Source: Apostichopus japonicus
Lineage: Eukaryota > Echinodermata > Holothuroidea > Aspidochirotida > Stichopodidae
Assembly: GCF_037975245.1 (NCBI RefSeq)
Contig: NC_092583.1
Coordinates: forward strand, 7,515,264-7,579,263
Length of the DNA stretch: 64,000 bases
Reading direction: 5' to 3'
The notes under the pieces were generated by a model. That model saw only the letters and a list, made by a program, of their open reading frames with translations. It was not told the origin of the DNA and searched no databases. A program made the translations under genes and the position numbers. Of the stretch, positions 8,400-63,067 are shown one piece after another (position 1 is the first letter of the stretch; each line of letters begins with the position of its first letter).

Positions 8400-8560
8400 A
8401 TGTGTCATATATATATCTAATTGACACCGTAGTGAGTTGGAAAATCCAGAACAGTGAAAAAACTTCCAGCTTCCACCGCGATTCGAACCCGGGCCTCCCG
8501 CTTTATATGCGGATACCCTAACCACTAGGATATGGACGCTGATTGTACGTCCAGAGGTTC
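8400..8560 (-). repeat. tRNA-derived SINE (minus), Tyr-like head
   Basis: On the reverse strand the head reads TAGTGGTTAGGG (box A) and GGTTCGAATC (box B), with loop ATATAAA (anticodon AUA, if read as a tRNA). A body containing TTTTCACTGTTCTGGATTTT follows. The same body recurs at 8,785-8,840, which argues for a SINE rather than a tRNA gene. Confidence 0.6.
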
Positions 8561-9604: not shown

Positions 9605-9775
9605 TTTGAAGAAAGACAACAGCTGAATGGAAGACTTAAGATACAGAGGAGGACAGACAACAATTGAAAAATACATTGAAGGCAACAGAGGAGGAAGAAC
9701 AACAGCTGGGATGGAAGACTAAATAAAACAGGGGAGGTAAGACAGTTATTCAAAGATACATTGAAGGCAACAAAG
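9605..9775 (+). pseudogene. Decayed copy of the coiled-coil exon of the large gene
   Basis: About four 42-bp units with ACAGAGGAGGA, AGACAACA and GATACATTGAAGGCAACA match the coiled-coil exon at 27,862-28,598. Small indels and a stop (ACTAAATAAA) break the frame. Together with the DED exon copy at 11,394 it shows a partial duplication of the large gene in the same order and strand. Confidence 0.8.
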
Positions 9776-9779
9776 GATT

Positions 9780-11304: not shown

Positions 11305-11608
11305 ATTATTTAATAATCAGTTTTATCAATTAGTTTGTTGTACTGAGTGTGATCTTTAACTTTATTTTATTCTTACTTTTATTTACATTTCAGCTGTTTA
11401 CGGCAGATTAATCGTCAATGTTCATGAAGAACTTCCTCTAGACAGCACTCTGAAATTAGCAACTCTGTTTGGTTTACCACCGGCTGAAACTGATATGCTA
11501 CGCCGGGTTTCTCTGATAGAGACACCAGGAATCACTCTGATTAACTTCATGAAAACACGAAACATCATCAACATGTTGGATATCACTAACCTACAAAAGG
11601 GTTTGAGT
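11305..11608 (+). pseudogene. Duplicated DED exon of the large gene with upstream intron
   Basis: This stretch matches 34,360-34,655, including about 85 bp of intron and the acceptor TTACATTTCAG. The exon begins at 11,394 and stays open, encoding a DED-like module (LDSTLKLATLFGLPPAETDM). About 90 consecutive bases (about 11,483-11,575) are identical to exon 7 of the large gene, while the first part of the exon is diverged. After 11,608 the match is lost, so the exon lacks its end and donor. No complete gene is present around it. Confidence 0.8.
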
Positions 11609-19566: not shown

Positions 19567-19586
19567 ATGGCCAGCACAAAAACCTC
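19567..19586 (+). CDS. Exon 1: start codon mini-exon
   Basis: AAAAATGG context, then codons for M-A-S-T-K-T and two bases TC before a perfect donor GTAAGT. The leftover TC joins the single A at 21404 to make a Ser codon in the open frame of exon 2. The phase match, start context and donor support it. It is short, so chance is possible. Confidence 0.6.
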
Positions 19587-25500: not shown

Positions 25501-28500
25501 AGAAGCCATGTTGTGGGCGGAGGTCAATGGTTGTTTAAGTTCACCAGGGGTCAGATTGTGAAACCATGTCTTACACAATCTTTCAACAAGGACTGATGTC
25601 ATATTTAGTATGTTGATGTATCTATCACATGGAGTACAAGAAGCTTGTTGTTGAGGTCAATGATCATTTCAGGACAGCCTGTGTCATTGTGAATTTATTG
25701 TTCGTCACATCGCACTGCTTTTCACTGTATTACTAATATCAAGTTTGTTGTACACCCTCACTATACATTACGTCAGATTAATGCAGAAAATAGCTGAATG
25801 TTACATCATTGAAACCACTATTCATTTTGCATTCTGGTTATTAATGTCACCAGGCCACACCATATACTAGTAAATTATGTCTAACAGGATTAAGTAACCC
25901 AGGAAACTTGGTTTAGCATTACAGTATAGTTGATAACTGCGAACAGTTTTCAATAATTACATGTTTCACATGCATTCTTTGTCATGAAGCTGTGTAAAGC
26001 TCATAGTGCGGTAGCTTCACATAAAGTTTAGTGTATACACCAATCTTAAAGAAGTCTTGACAGTGCACATGGACTTTGATTATTCAGGCATTTGTGCTGC
26101 AGCACATGTGGTTCAGCTGTACAACTTACAAGCATAAACCATATCTTCCAGCCTATATAGTGCTTCTAAGTAAGTTGTGTACTCCTTCAGTACATGTCTT
26201 CTGCAAGATTGTAGGCTTAAATAAATGAATCTGTAAGTAAAAACCTGTGTAAAATACAACACTGCCTCAATGGTTGACATAGTAATTAATATGTTAACTC
26301 ATGAAAAACAACACTGTTAATAATTAAGGAGAATGTAAGAGGTAAGAAGGGGGTAGGGAGAGGGTGATTTGTGTGTGTTTTAATGTTACTGACCACCTAC
26401 TGTACATTGCCCAGAGTAGAAGACAATTTAAGTAGTTCCATGTCCATGATTACATTCCCATGCAAACATGGGTCACAATGTACTGTACATGTAGCTTTAT
26501 TGGTTAAATTTAAAGAATAAAGTTTAGCCCAATCAAGAATAATTATAAGTTGGTGGCATCATTAAGGAAATCTACAACAATCTGACTGATACAGCTTCAT
26601 ATATAGAAGTATGTACCTGTACAACTTAACAATCAATCCATCCAATTGTCAGCTTATAATACTATTATTTTTTTCTAAAATAAATATTGTAGTTGAAGTA
26701 ACTCAGGTAAATCACAGTCACATTATCCACACCTTCATCATACTAAAAGAAATCCCTTCTAAGAATATGTGTTGCTGTCTCAATGCCTCAAACATCTATT
26801 TTGTTTCATAGTCTGCTTTCACCCGTATATTTATTTGATGTTTTTTTTTTCGATTTTGTTACAGAGTGACATCTTCTTTGACAGCCTCACATCATTGGAG
26901 TTATTGATTGAGAAAGATGACTGTCAGAAGCTACTTGACTACCTTGAAGTTCCAGCCAAGGAATCAAAGGACATTATTGAGAGTGATACACCCTTTTCAT
27001 CTCTAGTCCACCATCTCAGAGAGGCAGGGAAGGTTTATTTTGATGACATCAACTATTTAATGACAGCATGCTCTGACAAAGGACTGAGTAAATTGATGGC
27101 AGTATTGACCATCTACCAACAGGCTCAAGGTATGTTTATATTAGAGAGCTTCACAAGCTTAACATATTATGAATTGACAAACAGGCAAATGCATTGCCCA
27201 CACAAAGAATAGATGCAATTTTAGGTAATATACCATTATATTAGCTTAACTTAATTAACCCATTGATGATAGGAGAAGGACCATGCATCAATACCATTTG
27301 ATACAAATAATGTGATTAATAAATTGACAAGAAATTCAATAACTGCAATGGCATGTAAAGTACTTCGAGCCCGGAAAGAGAATCCAATTTGGATGTTCAG
27401 AAGTGTAATTATTCCACACTGCATGTTTCCTGCAAAGTCAAGGTCTTGTGTATTAGTCAAATCTTTGCATAAGTCTGTAACTTATTATGGGATATACTCA
27501 AAAGTTTGACTTGGGATATGTTCAGACAAGATTGGTAAACTTTTGAAATTTGTAATTTAATATCCTTGATACTGTATGTTGGAGGATCATTGAAGGGGCT
27601 TGACTTTGTTCAATTGCTCAGAAACTGGGCAAAATCAGCACCAAGGGAAGTGAAAGATTTGCAGTGTCACCTCAAATAACATGCTAAAGTTGGACCAAAA
27701 AGTGAGCTCACTAAATTTGGTGTAAGTTTGTCACAATATTTTCCTGGAAGTTGTACAGCATAGATAATTAAGATACATTGAACTGTGTTTATTTACATAA
27801 CTAAATTTCTTGTGTGGAAGACAATCTTTAACCATTTTTGCATGTTATATGTTTGTTTCAGATTCAAAGTTGACCAAAAAAGTACTAAAAGATCAACTAA
27901 AGGCATTAGAAGAAAAAAGGGAGGAACTCTCTCACAAACTAATTGAATCAAAAGACAAAAAACAGCAGCTCACCGGAAGACTAAAGACAACAGAGGAGGA
28001 AAGACAAAAATTGAAAGATACATTGAAGGCAACAGAGGGAGAAAGACAACAGCTGAAAGGAACATTAAAGACAACAGAGGAGGAAAGACAGCAATTGAAA
28101 GATGCATTGAAGGCAACAGAGGAGGAAAGACAGCAATTCAAAGATGCATTGAAGGCAACAGAGGAGGAAAGACAACAGCTGACTGGAAGACTAGAGACAA
28201 CAGAGGAGGAAAGACAACAATTGAAAGATGCATTGATGGCAACAGAGGAGGAAAGACAACAATACAAGGATGCATTGAGAGCAACAGAGGAGGAAAGACA
28301 ACAGCTGACTGGAAGACTAAATACAACAGAGGAGGAAAGACAGCAATTGAAAGATACATTGAGGGCAACAGAGGGAGAAAGGAAACAATTCAAAGATACA
28401 TTGAAGACAACAGAGGAGGAAAGACAACAATTCAAAGATGCATTGAAGGCAACAGAGGAGGAAAGACAACAGCTGACTGAAAGACTAAATATAACAGAGG

Positions 28501-31500
28501 AGGAAAGACAACAATTCTCCGATAGATTGAATACAACTGAGAACAAACTGAAGATATTGAAGGATGAGAAGGAAGAATTACTGCAGCAGCAGAAAGAGGT
28601 TAGACTTCACATAGCATATGATTATAGATATCTGATGACCAAGTTACCTAACTTGGGTCATGAGAAATGTATTTATTATCAACAAGATGACCATTCTGTT
28701 TGATCTGGTGGTGTTAAAGTGAATTTGTAGTTTACCAGTTTGCAAACACAACATGTATTTTCAGAAATTATGGAATGTTTATGATGTTCAACAGTAGAGG
28801 TCCAATGATGAACATATTATGATTGAACCTGAATGGAGTTATGTAGGTAACGAATAGGTATGTTTAACTTCAAGTTCGTAACATTTCTATTTGTTCATAA
28901 ATGGTATAATACTGAAAATAAGTACAAAATAATGTCGGAATGAAGGCAATATGTCATTAAAATTTACACTTTGGTAAAGATTGAAGATGGATGGTTTGTC
29001 TGAGATACTTTTTGAGATGGATATTTTGAGTAACTATTCTTAGCCCATTTCAAGCCATTAACAGGTGACATTCACGTCGAGGTGGTTAGGCCATTCGCTT
29101 AGCACAGTGCTGACTAGGTAGGATGTCATATCTCCGTATTTTGGAAATTAAATCAAAAACCTTTTTTTTCTTTCCGAGAAACTCCAGAGGTAATTTGGTA
29201 CATGTTATACAAAATGATACCTTAGAATCTTGTATAACAACGAAGCAAAAGGAAACGGGAAAATCACAACAATAATTGTTTCTGTCAAACTTTATTGCCG
29301 ATTTTGTATAAACGGGATATTTTCTCATTTTCAAATAATCGGAATCGTAATGATTATGAAAAAAATAATCGGTAATCGGTATTTTCTGTTATGCATAATC
29401 GGTTGAACACTAATTAAGATGAGTTGAGGTAAATCAAAACTTGTAAAAGATCAAGGAGTGGAACAATCAAGAAGTGGAAATTTGACAAAGATTCTTCTAC
29501 TGTAGGCACGAAACTTTTACATGACAAGTACAAGATCCCATTTGTATTTAAATCTTTAAGTTCTACACCTAGAATACAGGTCTCTCTTTACCCACTGTAG
29601 GTAAAAATATTTAATCCCTTTGTCTAAATGGCAGATCTTTCAGAGAATTACAGTTTATATGCAAAACTAAACAAAAGGAATTATATTAATATAATCAAAC
29701 GTTTGTGCTACAATAAGATAGGCCTACATTCATTTTTCTAGAACAGTTATTCCACAATTCCTGGCCGTTCCCTCTGAAAGAGATCCTAGTTCTCTGCACT
29801 AATTTACATTGAACAAGTGACTACTCTGAGCCAGTTAATAATATTGTAATAGACACACTCGGCCTCAAGTAAAGATCAAAACCTTATCAGTTCAGCCTGC
29901 CTGGTAATAAATGTGAATAAATTTGTCAGCTTGGTAAATATGTTCCCTTCAGACATGACATACTTTACTGCTAGTATATATATGCAAGTAATCACTGGGA
30001 GGTGCGTCCCTCGTGTCTCATTCACTGTGCTATTTACATTACAGGAGCTGGAAGAGGCTAAATCAAGTCTGAGGGCTACAAAAGATGAACTTGTGAAGTC
30101 TCAACTGGAATATGCCAAAGAATCCATGGCCTTACAAGAGGTCTTGAAACAGACTAGGGAAGCCTTGAATCAACAAGAATTGGTAAAGCCCTTTCACACT
30201 TTCCCAGATCGGGTGACAGTTTTGAACGATCCGTAGCGCAAGGCGATGATGAGTATCCAGGACGGGTTGATATGGGTCCAGTATGGTGTACTACGGCGTT
30301 GTTATGGGTTGATAAGGATTGTTACAGATAGATTCCCCGGTCTATCCCGTATATGAACAGAAAACTTAGGGTTCTACTACGGCGTTCTACAGGCTGTTTA
30401 TCCATGACGGGTTATTACAAAGCTGTCACAACAAGATCCAACCCATAGCAAGTTGTATCAGCCGTAGTGCATATGTACCAATACATGGCGCGATCCTTTT
30501 CCATATGTACCAATATGTACCTTTATCAGCACCAACAGATCATGTGATCATGGCTTACTAGGTCCACTACATAGGGTTGCTATATATTGTCTATGGGTCG
30601 TCTATGGGTTGCTTCAGGTCCTCTACATAGGGTTGCGGTTCCTTGCTTTAGCAAAAGGAACCTATGTAGTCAGGTTGGCGTGTGCGTGTATGTGTGTGGT
30701 ACCTTCTGATCATAAATGTCAATAGGTTGACCCTGTGTGACTTTTGTGTGTGAAGTTATAATGGGGTCAAAATTTTGGTCGGAGTTAGGATGGCTGTACA
30801 GACCTGTCGTGTTCATTTTTTGAATCAGAAGATCAAAGATTTTGATGCTCTATTTAGGTCTCACCGATCAAAAATGTCAATGGGTTGACCCCCGGGTGAC
30901 CTTTGTGTGTGCAGGTGTGCAAGTTTAAAGTTAATTTTTAGACATTTAATGCAATTAACTCTCAGTGCCAAGGTCTGACACGATTGATATTTTGGGACAA
31001 GTTGTGAATGGGGTGGTGGAACATTTTCAAACTTAACGGTCATGTGATCTAAGGTCACCAATGTTATCATATCTGTTGACCCGCTTGTAGGTGACCTTAT
31101 ATTTCTTACATTTTTGACGCCATTTTCAGATCTCAAAAGTGCCTTCCGATCAAAAATCCGATCACAATTTGTTATCACAAAAGTGTTGGCTATAGTGTTG
31201 GTTCCTTTATGGGTACATGTAGGACCACAATTACTTGGACTATTTGAACCCAATTTTGCTATGATAATATTATGTGAATTGTCATATACCCCTACGCAAG
31301 GAACCACAATGCCTTGGGCTCTTGTTTATCTGTGGGTTAGACTCATATTTTTGTAAAGCAAGTTCAATATTTGTCAACGTATCCGAAGGCCGGATCGGTA
31401 CGGGTTGCCACAGATAGCTACAGAACATCCCAATTCATGGTAGATCAGATCACGGATCATGTGCCTTATTTACCGTTCAGGCAAGACCGGGCTCGCAATC

Positions 31501-34500: not shown

Positions 34501-37500
34501 GAAATTAGCAATTCTATTTGGTCTACCACCGGCAGAAACTGATATGCTACGCCGGGTTTCTCTGATAGAGACACCAGGAATCACTCTGATTAACTTCATG
34601 AAAACACGAAACATCATCAACATGTACGATGTCACTAACCTACAAAAGGGTTTGGTTTATATTCAGCTAAACCAAACAAATGAAAACCTTTTAGCTCCAT
34701 ATCAGTCTAAAGTTGACCCGTTTCAGTTTGAAGAAAACCAATTACCAGAACTGCTTGACTGGCCAGGTAAGAACGAATGAAAGGATGCAATCAGAATACA
34801 TAAAACAAAAATAGTACAGTAATAATAAAAATAATAATAAAATAGTACTTATATAGCGCATTCATCAGCAAGGCTGTCGAAGCGCTTTACAGGAATTGAA
34901 ACAATTAATACACAGTAAACAAATAAAATACAGGAAACATTCAAAAGCAAATAGTACAAAAATATTGCCTATTAAGGTATATATCATAAAACTTATAAAA
35001 GGATAGAAAAATACATTAAAGCTACAAACAGTAGAAGCCACATTGAGTACAAGAAGCCTTTTTTTGTGGAGGTCAGAGGTCATTTAGGGTCACCAGGGGT
35101 CAAATTGTGAAAACTTGTAAATATGATATCTCAAGACGGGAAGTATGGGAAGACCTCATATTTAGTATGAAGGTGTATAACATAAAGCAAAAGAATGCTT
35201 TTGATTTTGGTGGAGGTCGAAGGTCATTTTGGGGACAACATGTCAAATTGTGAAAGCCTTCTAAACTTGATATTGCAAGAAAAAAACCTTGGACACATAT
35301 AATATTTGGTTTTTAGATGTACCATATCAAATTTAAGGAGCCTATTATTGCTTTTGGACAAGGTCAACAGTCATTTGAAGTCAACAAATGCCAAACATTT
35401 ACCTCACTCCCCTCTTACCTGTCTCTTTACACTAACAGGTATTCTTAAACATAATATCACAAGGGAAGCCTAGATAGATCGCATTTTTTGGGTATGTTAT
35501 TGTACCACATTGAGTACAAGAAGCCTAATGTTGTGGGCAGAGTAAGAGTTTAATGGTCGTTTGAGTTCACCAGGGGACAAATTGTGAAAACCATGCTTTA
35601 CACAATATTTCAACATGGACAGATGTCATATTTAGTATGTTGATGTACATTATTTATCACATTTAGTACAAGAAGCCTGTTGTTTAGGTCAATGGTCATT
35701 TCAGGACAGCCTGTGTCATTGCGAAGTTATTGTTGTTATATCACACTGCTTTTCACTCTACTCTTAATAGATCAAGTATGTTGTAGACCCTCACTTCGTA
35801 AACATGTCAGCTTCAGGAAGAAAACTGCTCATGTTACATCATCGAAACTACAATGCATTTTTGTATTCTGGTTTCTATATCAAAGCATTAGTTACTGGTG
35901 ATTGTATTTATATCATTCTATTTTTAGTTGAAAATGTCAAATTTGTACCTGATGATGGATCAACTCCATCACAAGCCTCTGATGAAAGAGAGGAAGATCC
36001 CGACCATAGTAAGGAGAGTTTGGTGGAGAGAACAGAGAGAGAAGAACTACCAAAACAAAGAAAAGATTCAACTGTACTTGGAATGAGGCACAATCACTCA
36101 TACATTGAACACAGGATAAAATGTGAAGGTGGAACTATTAGCGTCATGGGGGTACATCTCACTATTCCTGAAGACGCTTTATCCTATGAAGGTGTAATTT
36201 CTGTTAAAGTGATTTATGATCCTGACATGCACCTCCCTGGAAGTGCTCATAGAGGCAGAATGACACCCCTGATAAAACTAGAGCCAGAAGGACTCGCCCT
36301 CAACAAGCCAGCCCAGCTGATTATTCCTCACTCGGCTATTATCCCTGAACCAGATCGACATGATGTTATTATCTTCACTGGTCTGAAAGAAAATTTACAA
36401 GAAGGTAAAGATGGTGACCTAAGAGCACTTTAAATGCATTTGATGTAAGGAGAAGTAAATTGAGTTAAATTCTGAGAATCAGTACGGTAAATTATATCTA
36501 ATTTAATAAGCTCTTTTTGTCTTTACTGTATTTAAGATTACCAAGTTACTAATATTGAATATTTATATAATATTACTTATTATAGGTGAAATCACTTGGA
36601 ATGAAGAGAAATCTGTTGATTGGAAGCTAGAACCGGAGAAGATCAGTCTTGATATTAACATTCTGAGCTACGTCTTTGTTAATTTAGTCAGCCAAGAAAC
36701 AGAACAGAAGCATATATTTCGTATTGTTCCATTTATTGACGGGATACTGGATGCCAAAGATGATGTTTTAATAACTGTTTGTTTCTGTAAGGACAGTGAT
36801 GAAGAGTACAAGGTGAGGATAATCTCCTGTTACCATGGTGATATGTGTAACAGTTTGAGGTGAATTATGCTTTGTGCTGTGATCTGTAGGTCGGATACTG
36901 GGAATCTTGCTTACTTTCATGATTTGCATAACAAAATGTTATCATGTATTACTGGCAAATTATGAAGTGATTGGTTAAGGGTACATTTGTGTGACATATT
37001 TATTGATTCATTATGGGTTATCAAAAAGAAAACACTGTTGCATTTGAAATACCAAACATTTACTCTTAATTTGCAATCATGATTTAGAGGATCTGATAAA
37101 AACAAGCAACATTAATTGGTAATTTTATTCATTTAAGGCCTTAAGGGAACAGAAGCTGCTGTTACTTGCTATAGCAGTATTGATGAAGAATAGTGAAGCT
37201 GCACAACAAATTGCATAATTGACTCTGCTTTTTTTTTCAATTACTTATCCATGTTCTTATGTTTTAGTTGTTGTTAGAGGACCACCAGTCCAAACTGAGT
37301 CTAGGAAACTATACAACATTTCAAGTTACCCGGACATTGAATGACGGCAGAGATTATGCTTCTTACATTGATCTGATGATGTCATCGCCCGGTGATAGTT
37401 ACCATCTGACGAAGGAAGAATCAAGAAAGGTTTGTAATCACCAATGCTATTAAAATTTGTCTTCTAACATTACATGTAAGACTTGTAGTTAAGGATTGGT

Positions 37501-40500
37501 TACCTGAAGTGGATCAAAATGTTGTAGTGGTTAGAATGTGGTTAAAAATACCCAACAGTGACCATAATCTATGCAAACGTCTGGTGGGCAGTGTAACAGC
37601 AGAATCTTGTGAGGGATGGTATTTTCAGTTCATGAAGTAGGAAGTAAAGTTTGATCCTATATTCTTTCACATGGTTTGATAAAAAGCTTCACTCACCATG
37701 GCTGCACTTAGGTGATCATGAATGAGGTTGTCTTTAATTCACCTCCCTTTGTATTTTTAGTTAGTGTTCAGGTGCTGTGGCAAATTTACAGTTGCTGGGG
37801 TGGGTTGTTGATTAGGTGGCTGTCCTGTGAGCAGGAATGAGTGAGACAATTACATGCCTTCCCAGTAATTCTCTGAACACTTATCAAAAAAAAAAAGGAT
37901 TGATATAAGCCGGTATACATCTACAATGACAGGACCATCTATGGCTCAACTTTATTCCTGTAGGGTTTCTACCCCATTGGACAAAATTAACCTAAATATT
38001 TTGTTATGGAATTCTTTGATACAATTACCAGGTTTTCCTTAATTTGTTTCTATATATGTGTGGAATTGTTTCTTTGAGTACATATCAAGCATTCTCATCC
38101 TCATTATAATTGATCTTCAATATCTTTTATCCATTAGCATGTAGACATTGATCACCTCTGTGCTGCCAGTAGAGTCTCTCATCAGTTCAGACTTAAAAGA
38201 AACAACGATGGAAACACTGACATGGTTGATGTGAAGCTAAAAGTATCACAACACGAGAAGAACCAGACAGCCCTTATCCTCCAATCAAAGGTGAGTTATG
38301 TCTGCTAATTTTCTTCCAGCAGTGTTTGTGTTCTCATATGACTCTTCATTACATAATTCTCTCTTCTGATCATTCCTTTGCTTAGTAATGTCCTGTCTGC
38401 TGGAAGTCTTGCAACTGTTTTCAGGCTGACTGAATGATGTCAGTGCTGAGACTGAATTCTTAGTTATTTGTTGGCATGTTTGCAGTGAATTAGCTCAGTG
38501 GTTAACGCCGGTGCCTTTCAATCATAAGGTCCCGGTTTCGAGGCACTTCCAGATTAATGTATGTCGTCCAGTTACAGAGTTGTTGACAATTCATAATCAT
38601 GGATATTAAATAAGAATATAAGAGACTGACTTTGGTCAGCTTTCGGCTTTTATAAGCCAGTGATGGCTTCTGCGCGAGTTCCTGCTTGCAGGAGGATCTA
38701 AAATACATACTAAATGTTCTCTCATGGATCCTTTTCTTTGTAATATTCACTGTGGATGACAATTGAATTTAATTATAGTAGTCTGTTATTCTGTAATTAA
38801 TGAGTAACTCAAAATGCAGTGAATTGCTGAAAAAAAATGTACATATCACCTGTGTTTTATTCAATGCACTGGTCAACAGTTTTTGGAAACTTTGTTTTGT
38901 GGGTATCTTAGGTACAAATTAGATACTCCATAAATGATAGGTATGTTGTCATCAAGATTCCTTTCCTTGGGATTTCACTCATTTATTATGTGTTGTTCCA
39001 TGTTTGACGCAGCCCAATTTTTCTACATTACATTTCTTCTTTAATCCTATTCAGTCACAGGGGTGTGATAGATAGTGAACACTACTGTACGTCAAACATT
39101 CATACATGTAAAGTTTCATTGGTCATACATTTTGGGGTTTTTTTTTTCTTCAGGTGAAAAACATTCTCTTATCTCCAGAAAGCCAGGAAATTCTTTTTAG
39201 AGAACAAAATCCAGGTGAGTTTTCAAGTGGAATTTGAACAAATGGTTGTACTTAGTTTTAAAATCCACCCTGACCTGCTTCTAAGTGAAGTTGGAACAAA
39301 AAATGAATGCTCCTTATCTTAGATATGCACCAGGTAAGTGTGCATTAGTGGAGATGAAAAGGTAAGCATACATACAGAACATGGACCCAGGTGAGTGTCT
39401 AAGTAGAGGCGAAAATGTAATAGCATTTGGTTTTAGAAGTAGACACACCTAAGTGTCACTTATAACAACTAAGGTTATTGGGAAACATTTAATCAGCAAC
39501 TACTTTGTAGCTCAAAGCAACTTTTGAAAGTGAAACTGCATACAAGACTAGAATTTATGCACAAGACGAGTGCTAATAGTTGAAAAGTTGCACGAAAGTT
39601 TTGGACAATAAGCTTAACCAATTTATTATATGCACGCACCAACGTCCTCCATGCAGGTTGCATGCTTCTTGTGGGCAAGTTGTGTACTTACTTGTTTATG
39701 TTAGTTGTGAACATTGCTCATTGTTCAAACCTGGCACACAATTAGCCTGTGATTCATGCACTCTTAGTTATACATGCGAATCTAGTCTTTTCTCTCCTTT
39801 GAATGTAATGTGGATGTTGTTGTCCTCACTTTCAGACTTAGACAAATATGAAGAGTTGAGAGGAGAGATTGCAAAGCTTCTGGATAAACAACATTGTGAA
39901 CAGCTAGGCATGTTCTTTGGGCTCACACCAGCAGAAAAAGAAAAAATTCAGGAAGCAGCAAAATCTGGAGAGATACTGATGAAAATATTGGATGAAAGAG
40001 AGCTCATCATGTCAGATAGAATGATTGGACTGTATGGAGGATTGAAAGCTATTCACTTTAATAAGGTGGCAACAAAGGTGCTGAAATACATTGATACGTC
40101 ACAGAAGAAGAATGGAAAGGAAAAGGAAGGAGCGAAAGATGATAAGAAAATAGTATGTGCTTAGTAAAACATTGTTAAGACTTAACATGTTAAGCGTGAA
40201 GCAAAACAAAAGTCACTTTGAATGAAGTCAAAATCTTAGAAGTTTAGAAGGTCTAGTACAGACTGTACTTACTGATATGAAAAGTTTTCTTTTTGCTGTC
40301 GTGCAAGTCTGTCTGAAAATTCATCCTTCCACTAATTGTGACAGTTTCTGTTTACTTAAAGTTACGTGTATAGATATCAAACGTACAAGAAGTCTGTGAA
40401 GAAATTTACTTAGCCAAACCAAATGCAGTAATTTTCATAAAATAATGATAACAAATGTGAATTTTATAAACAATTTGTACTATTTCAACATTATTGTTCA

Positions 40501-43500
40501 GGGAAAAGTTCCAGAGAAACCAGTAGTCATTTCAAAGAGGGAACCACTATTGTCAGTTAACTTCAACATTTTGATAGAAGAGGGATACAAGAAACTGGAT
40601 GTCCAAAGAGCCTTGAAATTGTCTCATGGAAAACTGGACTTGGGAAGACGGCTATTGCTGCTTGCTAAGGAAGAGCATGGTAAAGTACCCATATATTCAG
40701 CTACATTGGTATTTCTTATTTATGTCTTCCTGATTTAATCAACCTCATGCAATCTTATATGACATTCTAGGACAACATTTCATGCCCTTGTCTATTTCAG
40801 TGTTCATGGAAGGAAAAGGATTTTGTTATTTATTTTTGTAGGAGTATTACGCACAAAATAGCTGAAAAAATAGAAATATAATCTAGATGCTGTAAATAAA
40901 CCTTGTAAATAAGTCTTGATACTGTTCATGAAAAATTCTCTTCTACATCTATTTCCATTTATCACATCAAATATGTCGTATGTTCACTGTTCCACCTTTC
41001 ATTATTGTAATTTCTACAAATAGCCAAAAGATTAAGGCAGATTTGTGTAAAAGAGGCTATTTTCATAATGTGAATTGAACAGTATATGCAATTAACACAT
41101 GTTTAATAAAAGTGGCAAAAATACTTACCTTTCACATAAAATATATTACTTTTCTCCTCCAGAGAGACTTCCTTTGTTCCCTGGGTCAAATCTTTATAAA
41201 GAACAATACTTTGATCAGCATGGAGGAGAGTTGGTTATCGCAGGTGTTAATCTCCTTATACCAGCTGGGGCACTACACACTGGAAGGATTGTTAGTCTGT
41301 GGGTTTCTACTGAACCTGCCATTAAAGGACCTTTCTCAAACAAGAATCTAAGGTTGACCCCCTTTGTGAAATTTGGTCCAGAAAGCCTTACCTTACACAA
41401 GCCTGTCACCTTGATTATTCCACACTGTGCTTTTACTACAACTAACCAGATGGGTATTGATGCGTACTCTGGTGTCTTACAAACAGGTCTGTGTTTTTTT
41501 TGCCGTGTGTTTTTCTACTCCAGTGAGCGTTATATATAGTCACTAACATTTGTATAATCAACATAAATATGTATATGAGCTTGTGTGTACCACGTCTTGA
41601 CTTGAAAACATGAGATGCCTAAAAGTGCATATTGGTTTTATTTGACACTGGGTGTTTGGTTCGATGTTAAATGAATACAAAAAACCCGTTATTCTGTAGA
41701 GGTCACAATCATTCAAAACAGGAAGTGTGAACTATTTAAATCTAGTGGGGTTTATAAAACAAATTTTTAAGTGCTTTGTGGTGCTCAAAAGGTCATTTGA
41801 GGTCAATATGTGTCAAAGCCTGAAAACCTTCCAAGCCTTCATAACTGCTAAAGTAAAGCTAGAATGAAAGTCACACTTGATATGTGAAACCACCTAAGTA
41901 CACAAACACAATAATGGGAAGAAAATCACTAAGCCTTCTGGCTCTGTGTAATGTAAAAGTCAATATCTCAAGAAGCTAGAGGTAAGGTCCAGACATATCA
42001 TCTCCATTTCAAGAAACCTTTTAGTTGAACTTTGAGAGCAAACATTTTAGGGAGAAATAAACAATATTTCCAGAGGGAAATAATACCCTTCAAGCTGTGT
42101 TAAACTTCAGGGTTTTATCAACTGACCATGCATCCATACATACAGTTAGAAGTATAATATTTTACTATTTTGATGTTCTATGTATGCAATGTTGCATATT
42201 CTACCACCAGACTGACCCTTTAAAGTCATCTATGGTATAGGTTAGGACTGGTGTTGTACCTCTCACCATGTTATAAAATTTACTAGAAAAATGTTTTAAA
42301 ATTTCCTTCAGATAAATCTGTCAAATGGAGCTTAGAAAGGAAACACCTCAGCTGCTCTATGAATAGTCAGCACCTTGCAGTTGGAGCTCAGAAACCCTGT
42401 CTCATTGGTCTTCATGTCTCTTTCGTACCTAAGATGAGGAAGCGTGTTTGTATTTTACCGATTATAAACAGAGTTTTTGATTCAGGGGATCAATTGACAA
42501 TCCATCTTTGGTTTCATAATGATGACACACTGGAACATAAAGTAAGTAGCAGATTTTGGTAGCTCAAGTGGTAATGCTTATTATCTCATGGATTCCAGTT
42601 GTCTGCCTTTCTGATTTATTTTTACTTTTATTTTTTATTATTGTCATCTTTAATGAGGGTAGTCTTGCTCAGTGCAAAAGCACTGCTTCTAGAGGAGCCC
42701 TCAATACAATGACAAATGGTTCATACACAGACATGTACAGGGTTGATACATTGTTAACCATAGCTAGTAGCGTTGGAAATGATAAAGTTCTAGCTTGGTG
42801 CAGACACATTTGTAAACACACCTTGTCCAGGTGTTCAAGATTAGACAAAGATTTATATTTCAGAACATAGGCTGTCAGACTATTAAAGGTCTTTGATAAT
42901 ACATCCTACCAGACACTCCATTATATAAGATATTTTTAACATCTCCCTTATTTATGAAACAATAGCCACCCAAAAGAGGGTCATACCAGGGAGTAGTTAT
43001 TGCTTCCTGATCTTACATAGAACAACAAAGCAGTGTGTGAATTGATGTTAATATTCAAATTTACATACATACTAATAATAAAATATTAAATTGTTTCTTT
43101 TTTAAATTAATAGAGTCTTATCAATGAAGAAATCTACCAGCAAAAGGGAACCATAATTCATGATCCTGTGTTTGTTCATCTCAAGTCTATGACTTCAACT
43201 TTACATGTTAGCACCAACTCCAGTACCTCACAGTGTAACCCACATCCTAGAAAAGTGGTTAGTAATATTTGTTAAATATTCTTATTTCTTTGTTGGCAAC
43301 ATGAAAAGAATGCAGCTAATTCCTGTTCCACGGGTAATTTGCATTTGTTGGAAGAAAAGCTATATGCATCTATTGAGTGGTATGCATATGGTGTAAGCAT
43401 ATGTTGTTATTGAAATAAACATCATCTTATTTTAAAGTTGTCTCCTTCTGACATTCCTATGATATTCAATTAATAAAAAGGGGTCAGATGGTCCCAGCTA

Positions 43501-46500: not shown

Positions 46501-49096
46501 TGATTCAATAAACTTTGATTAACCTTGAAAAAAACACATTCCTGTTATATTCTTTTGCACTAAATCGTACACCCATATTCACCAGTGTGAAGAGAAATTA
46601 ACAAGAAGTTCCTACATAAGATGTACATTTCACATATCCGAAAATACTTTTCAATTCATCACGAAGATAAGCTGATTGATGTCTAGGAACCTGATACATC
46701 ATAAACTATATGACCAAAAAGACCAACAGAGACTGACCCAAGATGAAGGATACCACATAAAAAACAAGTTCTTAAATATTCTATGACATTACTAAACCTT
46801 GCAACGCCGTTCTCTCGACAAACAGGAAATGGGCTCTAAAGGCAACACTCTCAGGATGAAGTGTAACCTGCATAGACTTTTCGTGGCAAAGTAGCTTAAA
46901 TGCAAGTTCTGTATTTGTTGTACCATGATTGATATTGATAATTGTAGAGACAGAGCAAAGATATGAAACTAGGAATTGAAATTAGAACTTCCAGTATTGA
47001 GATACTGCGTCATTGATGCTCTTGTTTATTATTTTTTTATTTTTTTGGTAGTACGAATAATCATTCTGTTCATAGCTTATAAGAGCTGAAAAGAATATTT
47101 TGTTGATAGTTTATAGCCTTGCCTGAAGCCCAACGCCTTGACTTTACAACATCCATCAATCTCAATATGCATAATTCCATTAGTTGGTCATAGAGTACTT
47201 CAGTGTACCATATATGTGTCCACTGGGGGTTATAGGTGCTGTCAAAGTAAAACACACAGCTATATTTACAAATTACTTTGCATTTTCCAATGTTTACACC
47301 TGGATAAAGACAGGTAGAAATTATTTCACTATGAAGAGGAATGCAGAAGAGCGGTTATTATGATTTTGTGTTTGGTGAGGGACCTGCCTTAAGGCAGATC
47401 ACCTTTAGAGAGAGAGAGAAAGACAGGCAGTTTAGGTTAATTCCCTTGCCCAAGGCCAGATCATAACGACCCAGTCGACCAGTACTGGGACCTGCATTCT
47501 TTAAATTGCAAGCCTGGTGCCAACAACTTGACCACCATGTTAAAGGCTCTCAAAAGGTTGATAAATGAATACTCATCACTTGATTTTTCTCTCTTCAAGG
47601 ATGTTGCTATGGAAACCCTATGGTTGAAGAACAGGCACAAGGTAGAATTCCGTCTTCAGAACAAAGGGATCAAAGATACTATAAACCTGGAAATAGAAGC
47701 AAGATATGGGATGTCAGTGAAGAATCTATTCCAGTTTAATATTCAGTTGCAGGTAACTTGATTTTGGTTTAAATTGACACAAAGAAAAATTTGAATACTT
47801 GGAGTTTAATGTTTCACTTTGGATTTATATAAGCTACTGAGACTTTTTATATTTACCTTTTCTTTATTTGTTTACCATTTTTACATTCTCTAATGAAGTC
47901 ATTTTTTTTACATCTATTGAAATTTCAACTTTGTTTGCCTAAATTATTGAACTGTCTTCCATAATACAAGTTTGAAATATGATACAATTTTCAACAAAGC
48001 AAATATCTTTATGACAAGCTGTCTTTATATCACAAATGTTATACGTACAAACTATCCTAAAAGTAATTACTAAATAGCATATCTTAATATTATCACTTAA
48101 ACCACATTTTGATACACACTGTCAATTGATAGAGATGAGATATTCACAAACTAATTTTCTAGGAGAATCATCAAGCTTTCCTCTTCCTTTTCTCTTCACA
48201 GATTGACAAATTACTACATATTGACCAAATCACATCTCCATTCCAGCTCGTCCTACCTGAATGTGAGTAATTAGTTACATGATTAAAATTTAATATCATG
48301 TTAATTAAATGTAGGCCTTTATATGTAAAGTGTTGATGTTTGCTTTACAATCCTTACATATGAGATGTGTACACCTTATCCTACTTTGCATAGAGGAGTC
48401 CAGGCTTTAGTTGCCATGTCAACTAGTGGACCAACTATCAGCTATTTGCTATACTCGATATTAAGGAAAATCAGTTCTGACACCAAAGCAACACACTTAA
48501 AGACTGAGTATATACACTGTATTGAAGTCTCAATGCAGTAAAAAATAAAAATTAATGAAATTCAACCACCTGTTTGAAAATATACATTCTGGAGTTATAT
48601 CAGATTTTAAATTTAGTCTCATTGAAAACTCTGAGCTTTTAAGGTTTATTTTGCCAGTGTGTGTAAGATACACATCACTGTTGTCTCACAATTCTGAATA
48701 TTGTTTGCATGAAACAGGTTCTGAGGAATTTACTGTATGTAGAGTAATGCATTTAACGTATTTGCAAGTTCCACCTCTTCTTTCAACATCACAGCCATCA
48801 TCAAATCTTTTGATCAGCTAAAGCAGAACTTATCAGAACATCTTGATGTAGACCAATCTACCCTGCTGGCAAATATTTTCCAACTTCCCGAGGAAGGAAT
48901 TACTGAAATCAAGAAGCACAAAACACCGGGAACTCTTTTATTAGAGAAGCTGACCAAAAATTCACTGATATCTCCCACAAACATCACAAAATTGGAAAAT
49001 GCCCTAACAGAACAAGGAAATGAAGAGTGTGCGAAACTTGTCAGAGATTTCAGATGGAAAAATCCTGTAGTTCAAGCAACAATGTGCCAAGAATAA
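19567..49096 (+). CDS. Large multidomain gene: propeller, DEDs, coiled coil, two ZU5-UPA-DED blocks, UBA-like (20 exons, 1,728 aa)
   Basis: Joined exons: 19567-19586, 21404-22232, 26865-27129, 27862-28598, 30045-30182, 32591-32675, 34443-34766, 35928-36404, 36586-36812, 37268-37429, 38138-38290, 39154-39214, 39836-40152, 40502-40679, 41163-41486, 42312-42541, 43114-43257, 47600-47752, 48202-48262, 48795-49096. All introns are GT-AG and every phase agrees, giving 5,187 nt. Modules by residue: propeller 8-283; DED-like 284-371; coiled coil 372-663; DED-like 692-780; ZU5 862-955 and UPA 959-1034; DED-like 1160-1250; UBA-like 1275-1320; ZU5 1332-1430 and UPA 1433-1509; DED-like 1629-1728. ZU5-UPA-death domain is known from UNC5, PIDD and ankyrins. 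No signal peptide or membrane segment is seen, so it is probably a cytoplasmic death-fold scaffold (inference). Confidence 0.82.
19735..19995 (+). repeat. tRNA-derived SINE with CATA repeat tail
   Basis: Box A TAGCCTAGTGGTTAACGCC and box B GGTTCGATTCC head, body with GTGTGTCGTCTGG, GGCTTCGGTCAGC, CATGGCTTCTTTCGCGAG and GCTTGCGGGAAGATC, and a (CATA)n tail at about 19,965-19,992. A diverged copy is at 38,482-38,715. Confidence 0.85.
20308..20425. repeat. Dispersed repeat, copy 2 (pairs with 9,055-9,190)
   Basis: CGTGAAAACTTTAGACCAAG and further AATAGCG-containing segments recur in the same order as at 9,055-9,190. It lies in intron 1 of the large gene. Confidence 0.6.
21404..22232 (+). CDS. 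Exon 2: beta-propeller-like domain
   Basis: 829 nt between acceptor CACACACACAG and donor GTAAGT, 276 open codons. It shows about six repeats of a beta-rich pattern in which a hydrophobic strand pair is followed by a D-rich turn (VCLLDDRLFLTCCNDTIALY; VYVGLTSSEVIVLD; LFICTGRDDRALMCN; LFLVTTTGEVHEYH). This fits a WD40/NHL-type propeller as found at the C-terminus of TRIM-like proteins, but here it is N-terminal and no RING or B-box is seen upstream. A propeller would serve as a binding or sensor platform. Confidence 0.8.
22500..23190 (+). repeat. ~215-bp tandem repeat, about three copies (intron 2)
   Basis: Successive copies share GGTATCAGTGAATG, AACACAACTATTA, GAGATCAAAATGGTGGAAAA, GGATGCTTCTTACACTTTGC and AAATTTGGCAAATATTTTT. 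Copies start at about 22,500, 22,715 and 22,925, with a partial fourth after 23,120. An open frame at 22,749-22,946 is one repeat unit, not an exon. Confidence 0.8.
24299..25690 (+). repeat. ~145-bp GGTCA-rich tandem array (about nine units, intron 2)
   Basis: Units contain ACAC.ATATCTCAAGAAGGGA, TACCACATTGAGTACA, AAGCCTATTGTTTT and AGGTCAAAGGTCATTTGGGG. The phrase ATATCTCAAGAA recurs near 24,393, 24,538, 24,831, 24,977 and 25,122, a spacing of about 145 bp. Divergence grows toward 25,690. Diverged relatives lie at 14,786-15,510, 32,085-32,420, 35,040-35,720 and 41,580-41,850. Confidence 0.85.
25700..26864. other. Intron 2, last part
   Basis: AT-rich with no recognised repeat or exon. It ends in a T-rich tract (T10 at 26,841-26,850) and the acceptor TTTTGTTACAG. 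Confidence 0.5.
26865..27129 (+). CDS. Exon 3: DED-like domain 1
   Basis: 265 nt, acceptor TTTTGTTACAG, donor GTATGT. Residues 284-371 follow the helix pattern of death-effector domains: SLELLIEKDDCQKLLDYLEV, then FSSLVHHLREAGKVYFDDIN, then LMTACSDKGLSKLMAVLTIY. A polar 'G.v...di..L' step leads into two amphipathic helices that end in 'L..i..y'. DEDs bind other DEDs in caspase-8/FADD-type assemblies (family knowledge). A DD is the alternative fold. Confidence 0.78.
27862..28598 (+). CDS. Exon 4: long coiled coil of 14-residue repeats
   Basis: 737 nt between acceptor TTTGTTTCAG and donor GTTAGA. After a Lys/Glu-rich helix start, thirteen units of 14 residues (consensus TEEERQQLKDALKA; 42 bp each, 27,990-28,535) form two heptads per unit, a continuous coiled coil of about 27 nm if fully helical (inference). 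Within it a 42-residue higher-order pattern is visible: LKDAL, F/YKDAL, LTGRL. Coiled coils usually drive oligomerisation. Confidence 0.88.
27990..28535 (+). repeat. 42-bp coding minisatellite with ~126-bp higher-order period
   Basis: Thirteen 42-bp units starting at each ACAGAGG.GG/AAAG. Groups of three units (LKDAL/FKDAL/LTGRL types) repeat, giving a 126-bp superunit. Length polymorphism is likely. A 204-codon open frame on the minus strand is a by-product. Confidence 0.85.
28600..30044. other. Intron 4, with a hAT-like terminal remnant
   Basis: Mostly unremarkable AT-rich DNA. At about 29,330-29,415 the sequence carries repeated AATCGG/ATAATCGGT and ends AATCGGTTGAACACTAAT, typical of one end of a hAT-type element. 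The partner end and target duplication were not found. Confidence 0.4.
30045..30182 (+). CDS. Exon 5: end of coiled coil
   Basis: 138 nt, phase 0 at both ends, acceptor TTTACATTACAG, donor GTAAAG. It encodes 46 residues of helix (ELEEAKSSLRATKDELVKSQ, then KQTREALNQQEL) with heptad spacing of hydrophobics, continuing the coiled coil. Confidence 0.8.
30240..30560. repeat. Dispersed repeat in intron 5
   Basis: CGGGTTGATA, ATTGTTACAGATAG, GACGGGTTATTAC, TGTACCAATA and GATCATGTGATCATGGC are shared with the interrupted copy at 9,780-10,310 and 11,200-11,290. A smaller related stretch is at 31,380-31,460. Confidence 0.55.
30625..31315. mobile_element. Possible non-autonomous DNA element with GGTTCCTTGC ends
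   Basis: GGTTCCTTGC at about 30,638 and its reverse complement GCAAGGAACC at about 31,297 bracket a stretch rich in TGACC and GTGTGTG. No clear target duplication. It could also be a recombined dispersed repeat. Confidence 0.35.
31460..32590. other. Intron 5, remainder
   Basis: Contains a diverged GGTCA-type repeat at about 32,085-32,420, with a perfect AGGTCAAAGGTCA at 32,340-32,352. Otherwise nothing recognised. Confidence 0.5.
32591..32675 (+). CDS. Exon 6: short linker exon
   Basis: 85 nt, acceptor TTATTTGCAG, donor GTAGGA, phase 0 in and 1 out. It encodes a Ser/Thr/Glu-rich linker (ASYTSVTAEETLLEECETPD). The phase fits both neighbours. Small linker exons are the least certain part of the model after exon 1. 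Confidence 0.68.
32680..34442. other. Intron 6
   Basis: A G-run lies at about 32,832-32,845. The last ~85 bases (from 34,358) are the part duplicated at 11,305-11,393. No other feature recognised. Confidence 0.5.
34443..34766 (+). CDS. Exon 7: DED-like domain 2
   Basis: 324 nt, acceptor TTACATTTCAG, donor GTAAGA, phase 1 at both ends. Residues include LDSTLKLAILFGLPPAETDM, then ETPGITLINFMKTRNIINM and DVTNLQKGLVYIQL. The pattern 'La.lfgLp..e', 'pG..Ll..L..r..i', 'di..L..gL..i' is shared with exons 13 and 20, so these are related death-fold modules. The exon is duplicated at 11,394-11,608. Confidence 0.75.
34820..34910. repeat. CR1/L2-like 3'-end remnant
   Basis: AATAATAAT repeats followed by TACTTATATAGCGC and AAGCGCTTTACA resemble the 3' end of the CR1-like element at 10,308. 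Only the terminal part is present. Confidence 0.5.
35035..35800 (+). repeat. GGTCA-rich repeat block in intron 7, homologous to 25,060-25,780
   Basis: The succession of units, including the unusual stretch with CTCACTCCCCTCTTACCTGT, TTGTACCACATTGAGTACAA and TTGTTG.AGACCCTCACT.., follows the same order as the end of the intron 2 array. This indicates that introns 2 and 7 share a copied block of about 700 bp. Confidence 0.75.
35928..36404 (+). CDS. Exon 8: acidic linker and ZU5 domain 1
   Basis: 477 nt, acceptor CTATTTTTAG, donor GTAAAG, phase 1 at both ends. After a Ser/Glu-rich linker, residues 862-955 match ZU5: GGTISVMGVHLTIPEDAL, then MTPLIKLEPEGLALNKPAQL and IIPHSA. The 'G.l...g..l.iP..Al', 'lsP.v...P.gl...kP..l.iPh' pattern is the family signature. 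In UNC5, PIDD and ankyrins ZU5 precedes UPA, as here. Confidence 0.88.
36586..36812 (+). CDS. Exon 9: UPA domain 1
   Basis: 227 nt, acceptor TTATTATAG, donor GTGAGG, phase 1 in and 0 out. Residues start WNEEKSVDWKLEPEKISLD and include YVFVNLVSQ and FRIVPFIDGILDAKDDVL. This is a beta-rich UPA-type segment directly after ZU5. The HFS autocleavage motif of PIDD is not seen at the equivalent place. Confidence 0.78.
37268..37429 (+). CDS. Exon 10: UPA-to-death-fold linker
   Basis: 162 nt, phase 0 at both ends, acceptor TGTTTTAG, donor GTTTGT. Residues LLLEDHQSKLSLGNYTTFQV probably complete the UPA beta-sandwich. It corresponds to exon 17 (144 nt) in the second block. Confidence 0.72.
37431..38137. 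other. Intron 10
   Basis: No recognised repeat or coding signal. Confidence 0.5.
38138..38290 (+). CDS. Exon 11: linker, counterpart of exon 18
   Basis: 153 nt, acceptor TCCATTAG, donor GTGAGT, phase 0 at both ends. It encodes HVDIDHLCAASRVSHQFRLK and a following beta-like stretch. Exon 18 has the same length and phases and a similar V-x-F-R-L pattern. Confidence 0.72.
38482..38715 (+). repeat. tRNA-derived SINE (same family as 19,735-19,995)
   Basis: Box A TTAGCTCAGTGGTTAACGCC, degenerate box B GGTTTCGAGGC, then the body with GTCGTCCAG, GACTTTGGTCAGC, TTATAAGCC, ATGGCTTCTGCGCGAGTTCC and GCTTGCAGGAGGATC. It matches the copy at 19,735 in order and is more decayed. Confidence 0.8.
39154..39214 (+). 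CDS. Exon 12: 61-nt exon, counterpart of exon 19
   Basis: Acceptor TTTTTCTTCAG, donor GTGAGT, phase 0 in and 1 out. It encodes VKNILLSPESQEILFREQNP. Exon 19 has the same length and phase and a similar peptide (IDKLLHIDQITSPFQLVLPE). This pairing supports both tiny exons. Confidence 0.72.
39836..40152 (+). CDS. Exon 13: DED-like domain 3
   Basis: 317 nt, acceptor CTCACTTTCAG, donor GTATGT, phase 1 in and 0 out. Residues YEELRGEIAKLLDKQHCEQL, GMFFGLTPAEKEKIQEAAKS, ILMKILDERELIMSDRMIGL and GGLKAIHFNKVATKVLKYID give six amphipathic helices with the same spacing as exons 7 and 20. A Lys-rich tail follows. By position it equals the death domain after ZU5-UPA in UNC5 or PIDD, so DED versus DD is open. 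Confidence 0.76.
40502..40679 (+). CDS. Exon 14: UBA-like segment between the two blocks
   Basis: 178 nt, acceptor TTATTGTTCAG, donor GTAAAG, phase 0 in and 1 out. Residues LIEEGYKKLDVQRALKLSHG and KLDLGRRLLLLA resemble the three-helix UBA pattern ('l.e.Gy....v.kAL..s.gn.e.a..lLl'). UBA domains bind ubiquitin (family knowledge). A ubiquitin link for this protein is inference. It has no partner in the other block. Confidence 0.6.
41163..41486 (+). CDS. Exon 15: ZU5 domain 2
   Basis: 324 nt, acceptor TTTCTCCTCCAG, donor GTCTGT, phase 1 at both ends like exon 8. Residues include GGELVIAGVNLLIPAGALHT, LRLTPFVKFGPESLTLHKPV and TLIIPHCA, all ZU5 signature positions. It is shorter than exon 8 because the Ser/Glu-rich linker is missing. 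Confidence 0.88.
41580..41850. repeat. Diverged GGTCA-type repeat in intron 15
   Basis: GTAGAGGTCACAATCATT, CAAAAGGTCATTTGAGGTCA and GTCAAAGCCTGAAAACCTT are distant relatives of the 145-bp unit. The rest of this intron is featureless. Confidence 0.45.
42312..42541 (+). CDS. Exon 16: UPA domain 2
   Basis: 230 nt, acceptor ATTTCCTTCAG, donor GTAAGT, phase 1 in and 0 out like exon 9. Residues WSLERKHLSCSMNSQHLAVG, IGLHVSFVPKMRKRVCILPI and DQLTIHLWFHNDDTLEHK align with exon 9 (WKLEPEKISLD..., IVPFIDGILDAKDDVLITVC). HLS stands roughly where PIDD has HFS, but this is not enough to claim cleavage. Confidence 0.75.
43114..43257 (+). CDS. Exon 17: UPA-to-death-fold linker, second block
   Basis: 144 nt, acceptor TTAATAG, donor GTTAGT, phase 0 at both ends like exon 10. 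It encodes SLINEEIYQQKGTIIHDPVF, VHLKSM and a Ser/Thr-rich tail. It has little similarity to exon 10 except position and phase, so it rests on splice logic. Confidence 0.65.
43260..44610. other. Intron 17, first part
   Basis: No recognised exon. Open frames of about 90-126 codons at 43,660-44,187 on both strands lack splice context or family motifs. Confidence 0.45.
44619..45778. mobile_element. Non-autonomous hAT-like element with 8-bp target duplication
   Basis: The ends are inverted repeats: left TAGTGTTTTCACGGGT, right (reverse complement) TAGTGTTACACGGGT. Both sides are flanked by the same 8 bases CTAGAACT (44,611-44,618 and 45,779-45,786), the target duplication size of hAT elements. 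Subterminal CCCG/CGGGTA-rich sequence is present at both ends. No transposase frame is seen. The inside contains tandem repeats at 44,640-45,200. Confidence 0.85.
44640..45200 (+). repeat. Tandem repeats inside the hAT-like element
   Basis: Two ~170-bp units (GTACCCGCCCGACGCGATAC ... CCCATTGACTTAGTGTGGTG ... AGATAACAGCAA) are followed by two shorter units that lack the GTACCCG part but keep GATTTC..ATTGACTTAGTG and ATCTTATA..ACTGCGTCAC. Confidence 0.8.
45790..47390. other. Intron 17, later part
   Basis: AT-rich, with an AATAAA-type site at about 46,508 that has no gene attached. No exon or named repeat supported. Confidence 0.4.
47390..47545 (-). repeat. Degenerate tRNA-derived SINE
   Basis: On the minus strand a box A-like TGGTGGTCAAGTTGTTGG, a box B-like GGTCCCAGTACTGG and CCTTGGGCAAGGGAAT resemble the head and body of a tRNA SINE. 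A GA-rich stretch lies at 47,408-47,425. It ends about 55 bp before exon 18. Confidence 0.45.
47600..47752 (+). CDS. Exon 18: linker, counterpart of exon 11
   Basis: 153 nt, acceptor TCTCTCTTCAAG, donor GTAACT, phase 0 at both ends. It encodes DVAMETLWLKNRHKVEFRLQ and a beta-like stretch. The length and phases equal exon 11. The preceding intron of about 4.3 kb holds the hAT-like element. Confidence 0.72.
47760..48200. other. Intron 18
   Basis: AT-rich with no features. It ends in the acceptor TTTTCTCTTCACAG. Confidence 0.5.
48202..48262 (+). CDS. Exon 19: 61-nt exon, counterpart of exon 12
   Basis: Donor GTGAGT, phase 0 in and 1 out, encoding IDKLLHIDQITSPFQLVLPE. It matches exon 12 in length and phase. 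Confidence 0.7.
48265..48794. other. Intron 19
   Basis: An open frame at 48,555-48,821 overlaps the acceptor but lacks splice support upstream. I read this as intron. Confidence 0.5.
48795..49096 (+). CDS. Exon 20: C-terminal DED-like domain 4 and stop
   Basis: 302 nt, acceptor TCAACATCACAG, stop TAA at 49,094-49,096. Residues FDQLKQNLSEHLDVDQSTLL, ANIFQLPEEGITEIKKHKTP, TLLLEKLTKNSLISPTNITK and ALTEQGNEECAKLVRDF follow the same six-helix pattern as exons 7 and 13. Ending a ZU5-UPA protein with a death fold matches UNC5, PIDD and ankyrin architecture. Confidence 0.78.
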
Positions 49097-62995: not shown

Positions 62996-63067
62996 AGGTT
63001 CCACCGAGACTTGAATTCGGATCACTGGATTCAAAGTCCAGAGTGCTAACCATTACACCATGAACCT
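62996..63067 (-). tRNA. tRNA-Gln (anticodon UUG)
   Basis: On the minus strand the 72-nt sequence has box A TGGTGTAATGG, anticodon arm CTGGACTTTGAATCCAG (loop with TTG) and T arm with GGTTC-like AATTCAAGTC. It closely follows animal tRNA-Gln. The acceptor stem pairs AGGTTC with GAACCT but its seventh pair is A-G, and one C of the usual GGTTCCA start is missing, so its function is probable rather than certain. Confidence 0.75.

Follow-up and report, generated by a model that had tools for sequence, protein, structure and literature searches.

A sea cucumber gene with a hypervariable propeller, four death folds and two ZU5-UPA units as a probable member of a germline-diversified receptor family

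What might a single protein do that joins a propeller, a coiled coil, four death folds and two ZU5-UPA pairs? The question is raised by a gene in a stretch of 64,000 nucleotides from the sea cucumber Apostichopus japonicus (C23:7515264-7579263 of a 671.6-Mb assembly; hereafter the window, with positions counted from its first letter). We consider it probable that this gene belongs to a germline-diversified family of sea cucumber receptors that recognise ligands in the cytosol and signal via death effector domains (DEDs). The family seems to have gone unrecognised and to serve inborn defence or self-recognition, many of its members being labelled netrin receptors in databases. A recognition receptor is preferred here to a fixed scaffold because the hypervariable, positively selected sites lie mainly on one predicted face of the propeller.

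When the exons were joined by hand, the gene comprised 20 exons on the + strand (19567..49096) separated by 19 GT-AG introns, with phases that are consistent throughout and a coding sequence of 5187 nt that gives 1728 amino acids and a single terminal stop. The product is identical, letter for letter, to P0001, listed by NCBI as 'uncharacterized protein [Apostichopus japonicus]' in a record that is not independent of this assembly. The modules follow the order six-bladed propeller, DED-like, coiled coil, DED-like, ZU5-UPA-DED, UBA-like, ZU5-UPA-DED, and the second ZU5-UPA-DED unit is an exon-by-exon copy of the first. The exons are as follows.

19567..19586, + strand: exon 1, start codon
21404..22232, + strand: exon 2, six-bladed propeller, residues 8-283, hypervariable codons mainly on the predicted top face
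26865..27129, + strand: exon 3, death fold D1 (DED-like); six helices in the model of P0044, D1-D4 profile match 93%
27862..28598, + strand: exon 4, coiled coil, encoded by a 42-bp minisatellite (14-residue unit, 12.7 copies)
30045..30182, + strand: exon 5, end of the coiled coil
32591..32675, + strand: exon 6, linker
34443..34766, + strand: exon 7, death fold D2 (DED-like); six helices in the model of P0010, D2-D3 profile match 97%
35928..36404, + strand: exon 8, ZU5 of unit 1 (Pfam ZU5, E 2e-8)
36586..36812, + strand: exon 9, end of the unit 1 ZU5
37268..37429, + strand: exon 10, UPA of unit 1
38138..38290, + strand: exon 11, UPA of unit 1
39154..39214, + strand: exon 12, end of the unit 1 UPA
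39836..40152, + strand: exon 13, DED D3, which closes unit 1; mosaic among paralogs
40502..40679, + strand: exon 14, UBA-like three-helix segment (weak evidence)
41163..41486, + strand: exon 15, ZU5 of unit 2 (Pfam ZU5, E 1e-12)
42312..42541, + strand: exon 16, end of the unit 2 ZU5
43114..43257, + strand: exon 17, UPA of unit 2
47600..47752, + strand: exon 18, UPA of unit 2
48202..48262, + strand: exon 19, end of the unit 2 UPA
48795..49096, + strand: exon 20, DED D4 and stop

These data confirm, at the level of sequence and prediction, the single gene that an earlier note on this DNA had proposed, and the modules and the two ZU5-UPA-death-fold units named there were borne out by Pfam, by structure models and alignments and by profiles, with the UBA-like segment the weak member. 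The Pfam ZU5 profile (PF00791) matches the protein in two stretches with 75.2 bits against a cut-off of 21 (34.7 and 48.5 bits separately), the UPA fold follows ZU5, and D3 and D4 are six-helix death folds nearest to DEDs. For D1 and D2, six helices are predicted in the models of relatives and the profiles are akin to those of D3 and D4, with no DED match in the PDB by sequence; D2 and D3 are missing from the rows of the structural alignment, which says nothing against their fold. The UPAa and UPAb profiles gave no alignment, and the 100% match between the ZU5a and ZU5b profiles was not used, the two sets being partly mixed by single-unit members present in both. Exon 2 is predicted to adopt a six-bladed, NHL-like propeller fold; a Pfam scan of exons 1-2, read down to E 5, gave no NHL repeat row. 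The UBA profile reached 16.2 and 15.2 bits in relatives against a cut-off of 22.4 and gave no row for the window copy.

We reject two separate tandem genes, split after exon 13, because among 59 proteins scanned with home-made profiles the whole layout stands in one chain in 22 of the 41 from A. japonicus and in 4 of the 18 from Holothuria leucospilota; in three of these 26 the propeller is cut, and isoforms of a single gene may be among them. Single-unit members were also found (P0044, P0056 and P0040).

The earlier note knew of no described protein with this architecture, and we likewise found no paper describing the family among those listed by our literature searches; the main text of the H. 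glaberrima genome preprint contains none of the terms UNC5, ZU5, death, netrin, propeller or NACHT. The gene is, however, no singleton. Three protein searches returned 41, 47 and 68 matches, and every species name given was A. japonicus or H. leucospilota. The search for orthologs that had been proposed thus yielded relatives in one other sea cucumber and none outside the sea cucumbers at thresholds of 1e-3, 0.01 and 1e-3, which does not establish absence in urchins, sea stars or amphioxus because each search scored only ∼8000 word-sharing candidates. In the assembly, all 138 of 138 propeller candidates were scored and gave 122 match pieces, which became 110 propeller exons once 12 short C-terminal pieces had been merged away. 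Fifty-one of these lie at ≥62% identity on C23, C15, C19 and C16, and 59 at 34-49% identity mainly on C12; 105 are without stops in the matched part. A same-strand ZU5 exon follows 4-45 kb downstream in 90 of the 110 (0 in the strand-flipped control), a count that rests on 150 scored of 204 ZU5 candidates and hence on a list that is a minimum, and 27 have an upstream ZU5 exon, as expected from tandem arrays.

Three further places touch on the family. At C12:19.4-20.0 Mb, 15 ZU5 exons and one NACHT exon (19436332) stand with no propeller match nearby, and may either make up a third branch of the family or belong to ZU5 genes of another kind. Upstream of the gene in the window, coiled-coil repeats and a truncated D2 exon (∼84% identical to paralogs) at 9608-9778 and 11387-11605 (+) mark a second family member, probably a pseudogene remnant judging from its sequence, with no propeller or ZU5 match at these fragments. 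Also on the + strand, 14580-14760 matches in two frames the N-terminal 59 residues of P0023, a segment ahead of the P0023 propeller, and is possibly an alternative 5' exon or a repeat.

How do the members of this family differ from each other? Among 19 full-length A. japonicus paralogs (1677 residues), the median entropy of the propeller (0.30 bits) falls inside the range of the other modules (0.0-0.6), and the extreme positions are concentrated in it, with 20 of the 28 sites at ≥2.0 bits and 10 of the 11 at ≥2.5 bits. The propellers of the two species were analysed apart, 26 from A. japonicus (mean identity 76%) and 11 from H. leucospilota (68%), with 30% identity between the species, and 17 hypervariable sites (of 34 and 41) were common to both species, compared with 5.3 expected (p 3e-7). 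When P0055 and P0056, two divergent propellers of H. leucospilota, were removed and the threshold was chosen by hand, 15 sites (of 34 and 22) were shared versus 2.9 expected (p 2e-10). On the blades of the predicted model, where the top face was taken as the loop residues together with the nearest quarter of each strand, the A. japonicus hypervariable sites would lie on this face in 33 of 40 cases versus 74 of 221 for the other sites (p 9e-9); for H. leucospilota the counts are 31 of 44 versus 81 of 226 (p 4e-5). Most of them cluster at the D-A and B-C loops of a single face of the predicted propeller. At the 17 common sites the 26 A. japonicus propellers display 25 different residue combinations, and Trp plus Tyr are 3.5 and 2.8 times commoner at hypervariable than at moderately variable sites. 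Variable pairs flank a more conserved residue at 22/24, 121/123, 165/167, 205/207 and 256/258, around residues 23, 122, 166, 206 and 257.

Selection was tested in A. japonicus DNA at sites defined in H. leucospilota, and the test is therefore not circular. All ratios of nonsynonymous to synonymous substitution rates (dN/dS) given here come from counting methods rather than codon-model likelihoods, were taken among copies that show signs of gene conversion, and concern stop-free copies only (29 of 51 and 20 of 52 in the two larger sets). In pairwise comparison of nine copies, dN/dS was 4.0 at 24 H. leucospilota-defined top-face codons (codon bootstrap 2.6-7.5), compared with 0.83 outside the H. 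leucospilota set, 0.70 in the bottom loops and 1.09 over the whole exon, and 0 of 400 random codon sets reached the dN of the defined codons. Parsimony on the tree gave 96.5 versus 7.5 changes (dN/dS 3.0, P 0.001), with 2.3 for the B-C loops (P 0.03) and 1.5 for the D-A loops (P 0.12). With a smaller, cleaned site set the pairwise value was 2.57 (2.73 without the window copy), dS being raised there as well (0.224 versus 0.088). For the larger sets a 22-site H. leucospilota set replaced the first one of 37 sites, 19 and 18 sites being usable: in the 29 copies of subfamily 1 these sites had a dN/dS of 2.59 (P 5e-9), with 0.93 for the rest and 0.93 for the bottom (A-B and C-D) loops, and in the 20 copies of C12 the values were 6.77 (P 5e-12), 1.51 (P 1e-4) and 0.78, respectively. 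Other exons gave 0.59 (D1, 10 copies), 0.29 (D2, 4 copies) and 0.38 (ZU5, 3 copies). Exon 13 (39836-40152) is 89-96% identical to P0006, P0007 and P0009 but 75-76% identical to P0002-P0005, whose flanks are 89-96% identical, which suggests exon-sized gene conversion of this DED exon.

This pattern has a parallel in the HET-D/HET-E (HNWD) NLRs of the fungus Podospora anserina, where, according to the available sections of the source, positive selection acts on codons 7 and 9 of the d-a loop and on 25 and 27 of the b-c turn, which surround conserved residues, all of them at the propeller top (PMC1805685). Both systems have a propeller in a multigene family, positively selected d-a and b-c positions on its top face (here by counting methods and on a predicted model), exchange between copies and a link to cell death, which for the sea cucumber genes would be by analogy. 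Unlike the fungal WD40 repeats, which are described in the same sections as highly similar and placed after NACHT (PMC1805685), the sea cucumber propeller has six divergent NHL-like blades at the N terminus, and the window gene has death folds and ZU5-UPA with no NACHT row in Pfam.

NACHT is found in a sister subfamily, with the same head on a NACHT-ZU5-Death-like (NLR) body. One gene on C12, read from open frames and unspliced, runs over 28 kb of one strand through a propeller, two DED-like exons and a 629-residue frame with NACHT (Pfam E 7e-19) and ZU5 (E 7e-11), has an SFS motif at the ZU5-UPA border, and ends in a frame that by eye resembles the Death domain of P0034 and P0035. A NACHT exon lies 2-45 kb downstream on the same strand of at least 36 of 52 C12 propellers, compared with at least 1 of 58 elsewhere and 0 in the flipped control, counts that are lower bounds because 106 of 487 NACHT candidates were scored; for the C23 propellers it is 0 of 15 among the matches listed. 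A further NACHT-type member may exist away from the C12 array, at C19:5215243-5252491, where a NACHT exon (5244471) and a ZU5 come after a propeller. The NACHT and coiled-coil bodies seem to have exchanged parts, since in P0034 and P0035 the second unit attached to the coiled-coil body has a Pfam Death domain over the cut-off, and the second-unit ZU5 of P0034 is 65% identical to the C12 ZU5 exon. P0046 and P0039 are NACHT fusions that were first suspected to be annotation mergers; the C12 gene shows that the NACHT form exists and leaves those two unsettled. Taking these results together, we are mildly inclined to see one hypervariable and positively selected head, in ∼110 genes in arrays, joined either to a NACHT-ZU5-UPA-Death NLR body or to a signalling body without NACHT that has a coiled coil, four DED-like folds and a doubled ZU5-UPA-DED, as an independently arisen animal counterpart of HET-D/HET-E immunity.

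Could the protein instead be a death-domain scaffold, with a constant propeller platform for host proteins whose loops vary merely from freedom? Many propellers serve as host scaffolds, and the D1, D2 and ZU5 exons are conserved (dN/dS 0.3-0.6). Relaxed constraint, however, does not yield a dN/dS of 2.6-6.8, and it is the D-A and B-C loops that vary while the A-B and C-D loops are quiet (0.93 and 0.78), with Trp and Tyr enriched at the hypervariable sites and the same sites affected in two species, so that we regard a fixed scaffold as improbable. The earlier interpretation of the gene as a signalling scaffold is thereby retained in part: the propeller as binder, the coiled coil as oligomeriser and the DEDs as docking points are each plausible by analogy, and the selected face points to recognition in place of the fixed platform. 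The caspase-8/FADD-type or PIDD-type signalling suggested in the earlier note would likewise follow from analogy. A similarly low probability attaches to allorecognition rather than pathogen defence, in which the diversified propeller would read self or non-self marks as HET-D/HET-E do. To our knowledge sea cucumbers are not known to fuse, which counts against it. In its favour, the loop positions resemble those of the fungal non-self receptors as these are described in the available sections of PMC1805685, and on the present sequences allorecognition and the preferred recognition receptor are indistinguishable.

A very different account is already in print, the 2017 A. japonicus genome paper having, in its available part, counted 234 'netrin receptor' genes and suggested that they answer the lack of a central nervous system (PMC5638244). 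The 234 probably include the propeller family: relatives are named 'uncharacterized', 'Netrin receptor UNC5' and otherwise, with the UniRef name Netrin receptor UNC5 on 7 of 19 relatives bearing BSL78 names (the genome-paper annotation) and UNC5-type NCBI names on 8 of 18 H. leucospilota relatives. We nevertheless reject UNC5 membership and hold an expanded UNC5 family compensating for that lack to be very improbable, as the window protein has no Ig or thrombospondin row in Pfam, its hydropathy (highest 19-residue value 1.35) reveals neither a clear membrane segment nor a clear signal peptide, and a propeller, a coiled coil, four death folds and a NACHT-bearing sister do not fit. The Pfam columns of the relatives, going by accession numbers that we take to be those of Ig and thrombospondin, show neither domain.

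For the preferred recognition receptor we propose, by analogy with known families, that the N-terminal propeller binds a foreign or non-self ligand in the cytosol through its top face, which differs between paralogs. The coiled coil and the UPA domains would then assemble chains, UPA being described as oligomerising in NLRP1 and CARD8 in the available part of PMC7794386. D1-D4 could nucleate assembly with DED-bearing partners, e.g. caspase-8/FADD-type proteins, and the output would be cell death, inflammation or NF-kB-type signalling. In UNC5b, ZU5 restrains its UPA and death-fold partner until activation, and ZU5 probably keeps UPA and DED inhibited in the same manner here, without autocleavage. 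The HF/S or SF/S self-cleavage site is absent at the ZU5 end of both units, where ILSY (unit 1) and KPCL (unit 2) stand opposite HFSW of P0034, and PIDD-type self-cleavage of the window protein is for this reason unlikely. It is possible in relatives, which at the same aligned place have HFS (P0034), NFS (P0035) and SFS (the C12 NACHT gene); P0020, P0022 and P0031 contain the letters HFS in unit 2 as well, but ∼17 residues ahead of this place.

Other known proteins share parts of this layout. The cytoplasmic tail of UNC5B (3g5b), the best structural match of unit 2, has the same ZU5-UPA-death-superfamily order, whereas the window protein has no ectodomain or membrane segment that we could find, a DED in place of the Death domain, and two units. 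It differs from PIDD1 and the FIIND proteins (NLRP1, CARD8) in having no leucine-rich repeat row in Pfam at E up to 1, no HF/S or SF/S site, and a UPA and a DED for each ZU5. Ankyrins (ZU5-ZU5-UPA-DD, 4d8o) likewise have two ZU5 per chain and were matched structurally, but they have one UPA and one DD against two complete units here, where Pfam gave no ankyrin repeat row. The TRADD-N/DED expansions of marine invertebrates are similar in that echinoderm death-fold families are expanded, some fused to UPA-ZU5, with variable flanks; no TRADD-N row was obtained in Pfam here, and no hypervariable propeller is described in the available part of that paper (PMC8195603).

If the proposal is correct, these genes represent a new receptor class in animal immunity, and fungi and echinoderms would seem to have converged on the same variable propeller positions. 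As a counterpart of HET-D/HET-E immunity the family would be, within the literature searched, the first description in animals of an intracellular receptor repertoire that is propeller-based and germline-diversified. The published netrin-receptor reading of the A. japonicus genes would be corrected, sea cucumber genetics would gain concrete candidate loci, and DED-based receptor function without NACHT would become testable.

The remaining features of the window are repeats and two tRNA genes. Intron 2 contains minisatellites at 22548-23160 (209-bp unit) and 24383-25281 (145-bp unit), and the intronic stretches at ∼19735-19990 and 38480-38700 resemble, by eye, tRNA-derived short interspersed elements. 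Just 3' of the gene are two 20-bp minisatellite arrays, at 49952-50483, with the unit ATGTCCAAAATAATATAAGC, and at 51288-51784, with a unit that resembles its complement. The tRNA genes were each found by ARAGORN and an Rfam tRNA match.

8467-8540, - strand: tRNA-Tyr (anticodon ata)
62995-63068, - strand: tRNA-Gln (anticodon ttg)
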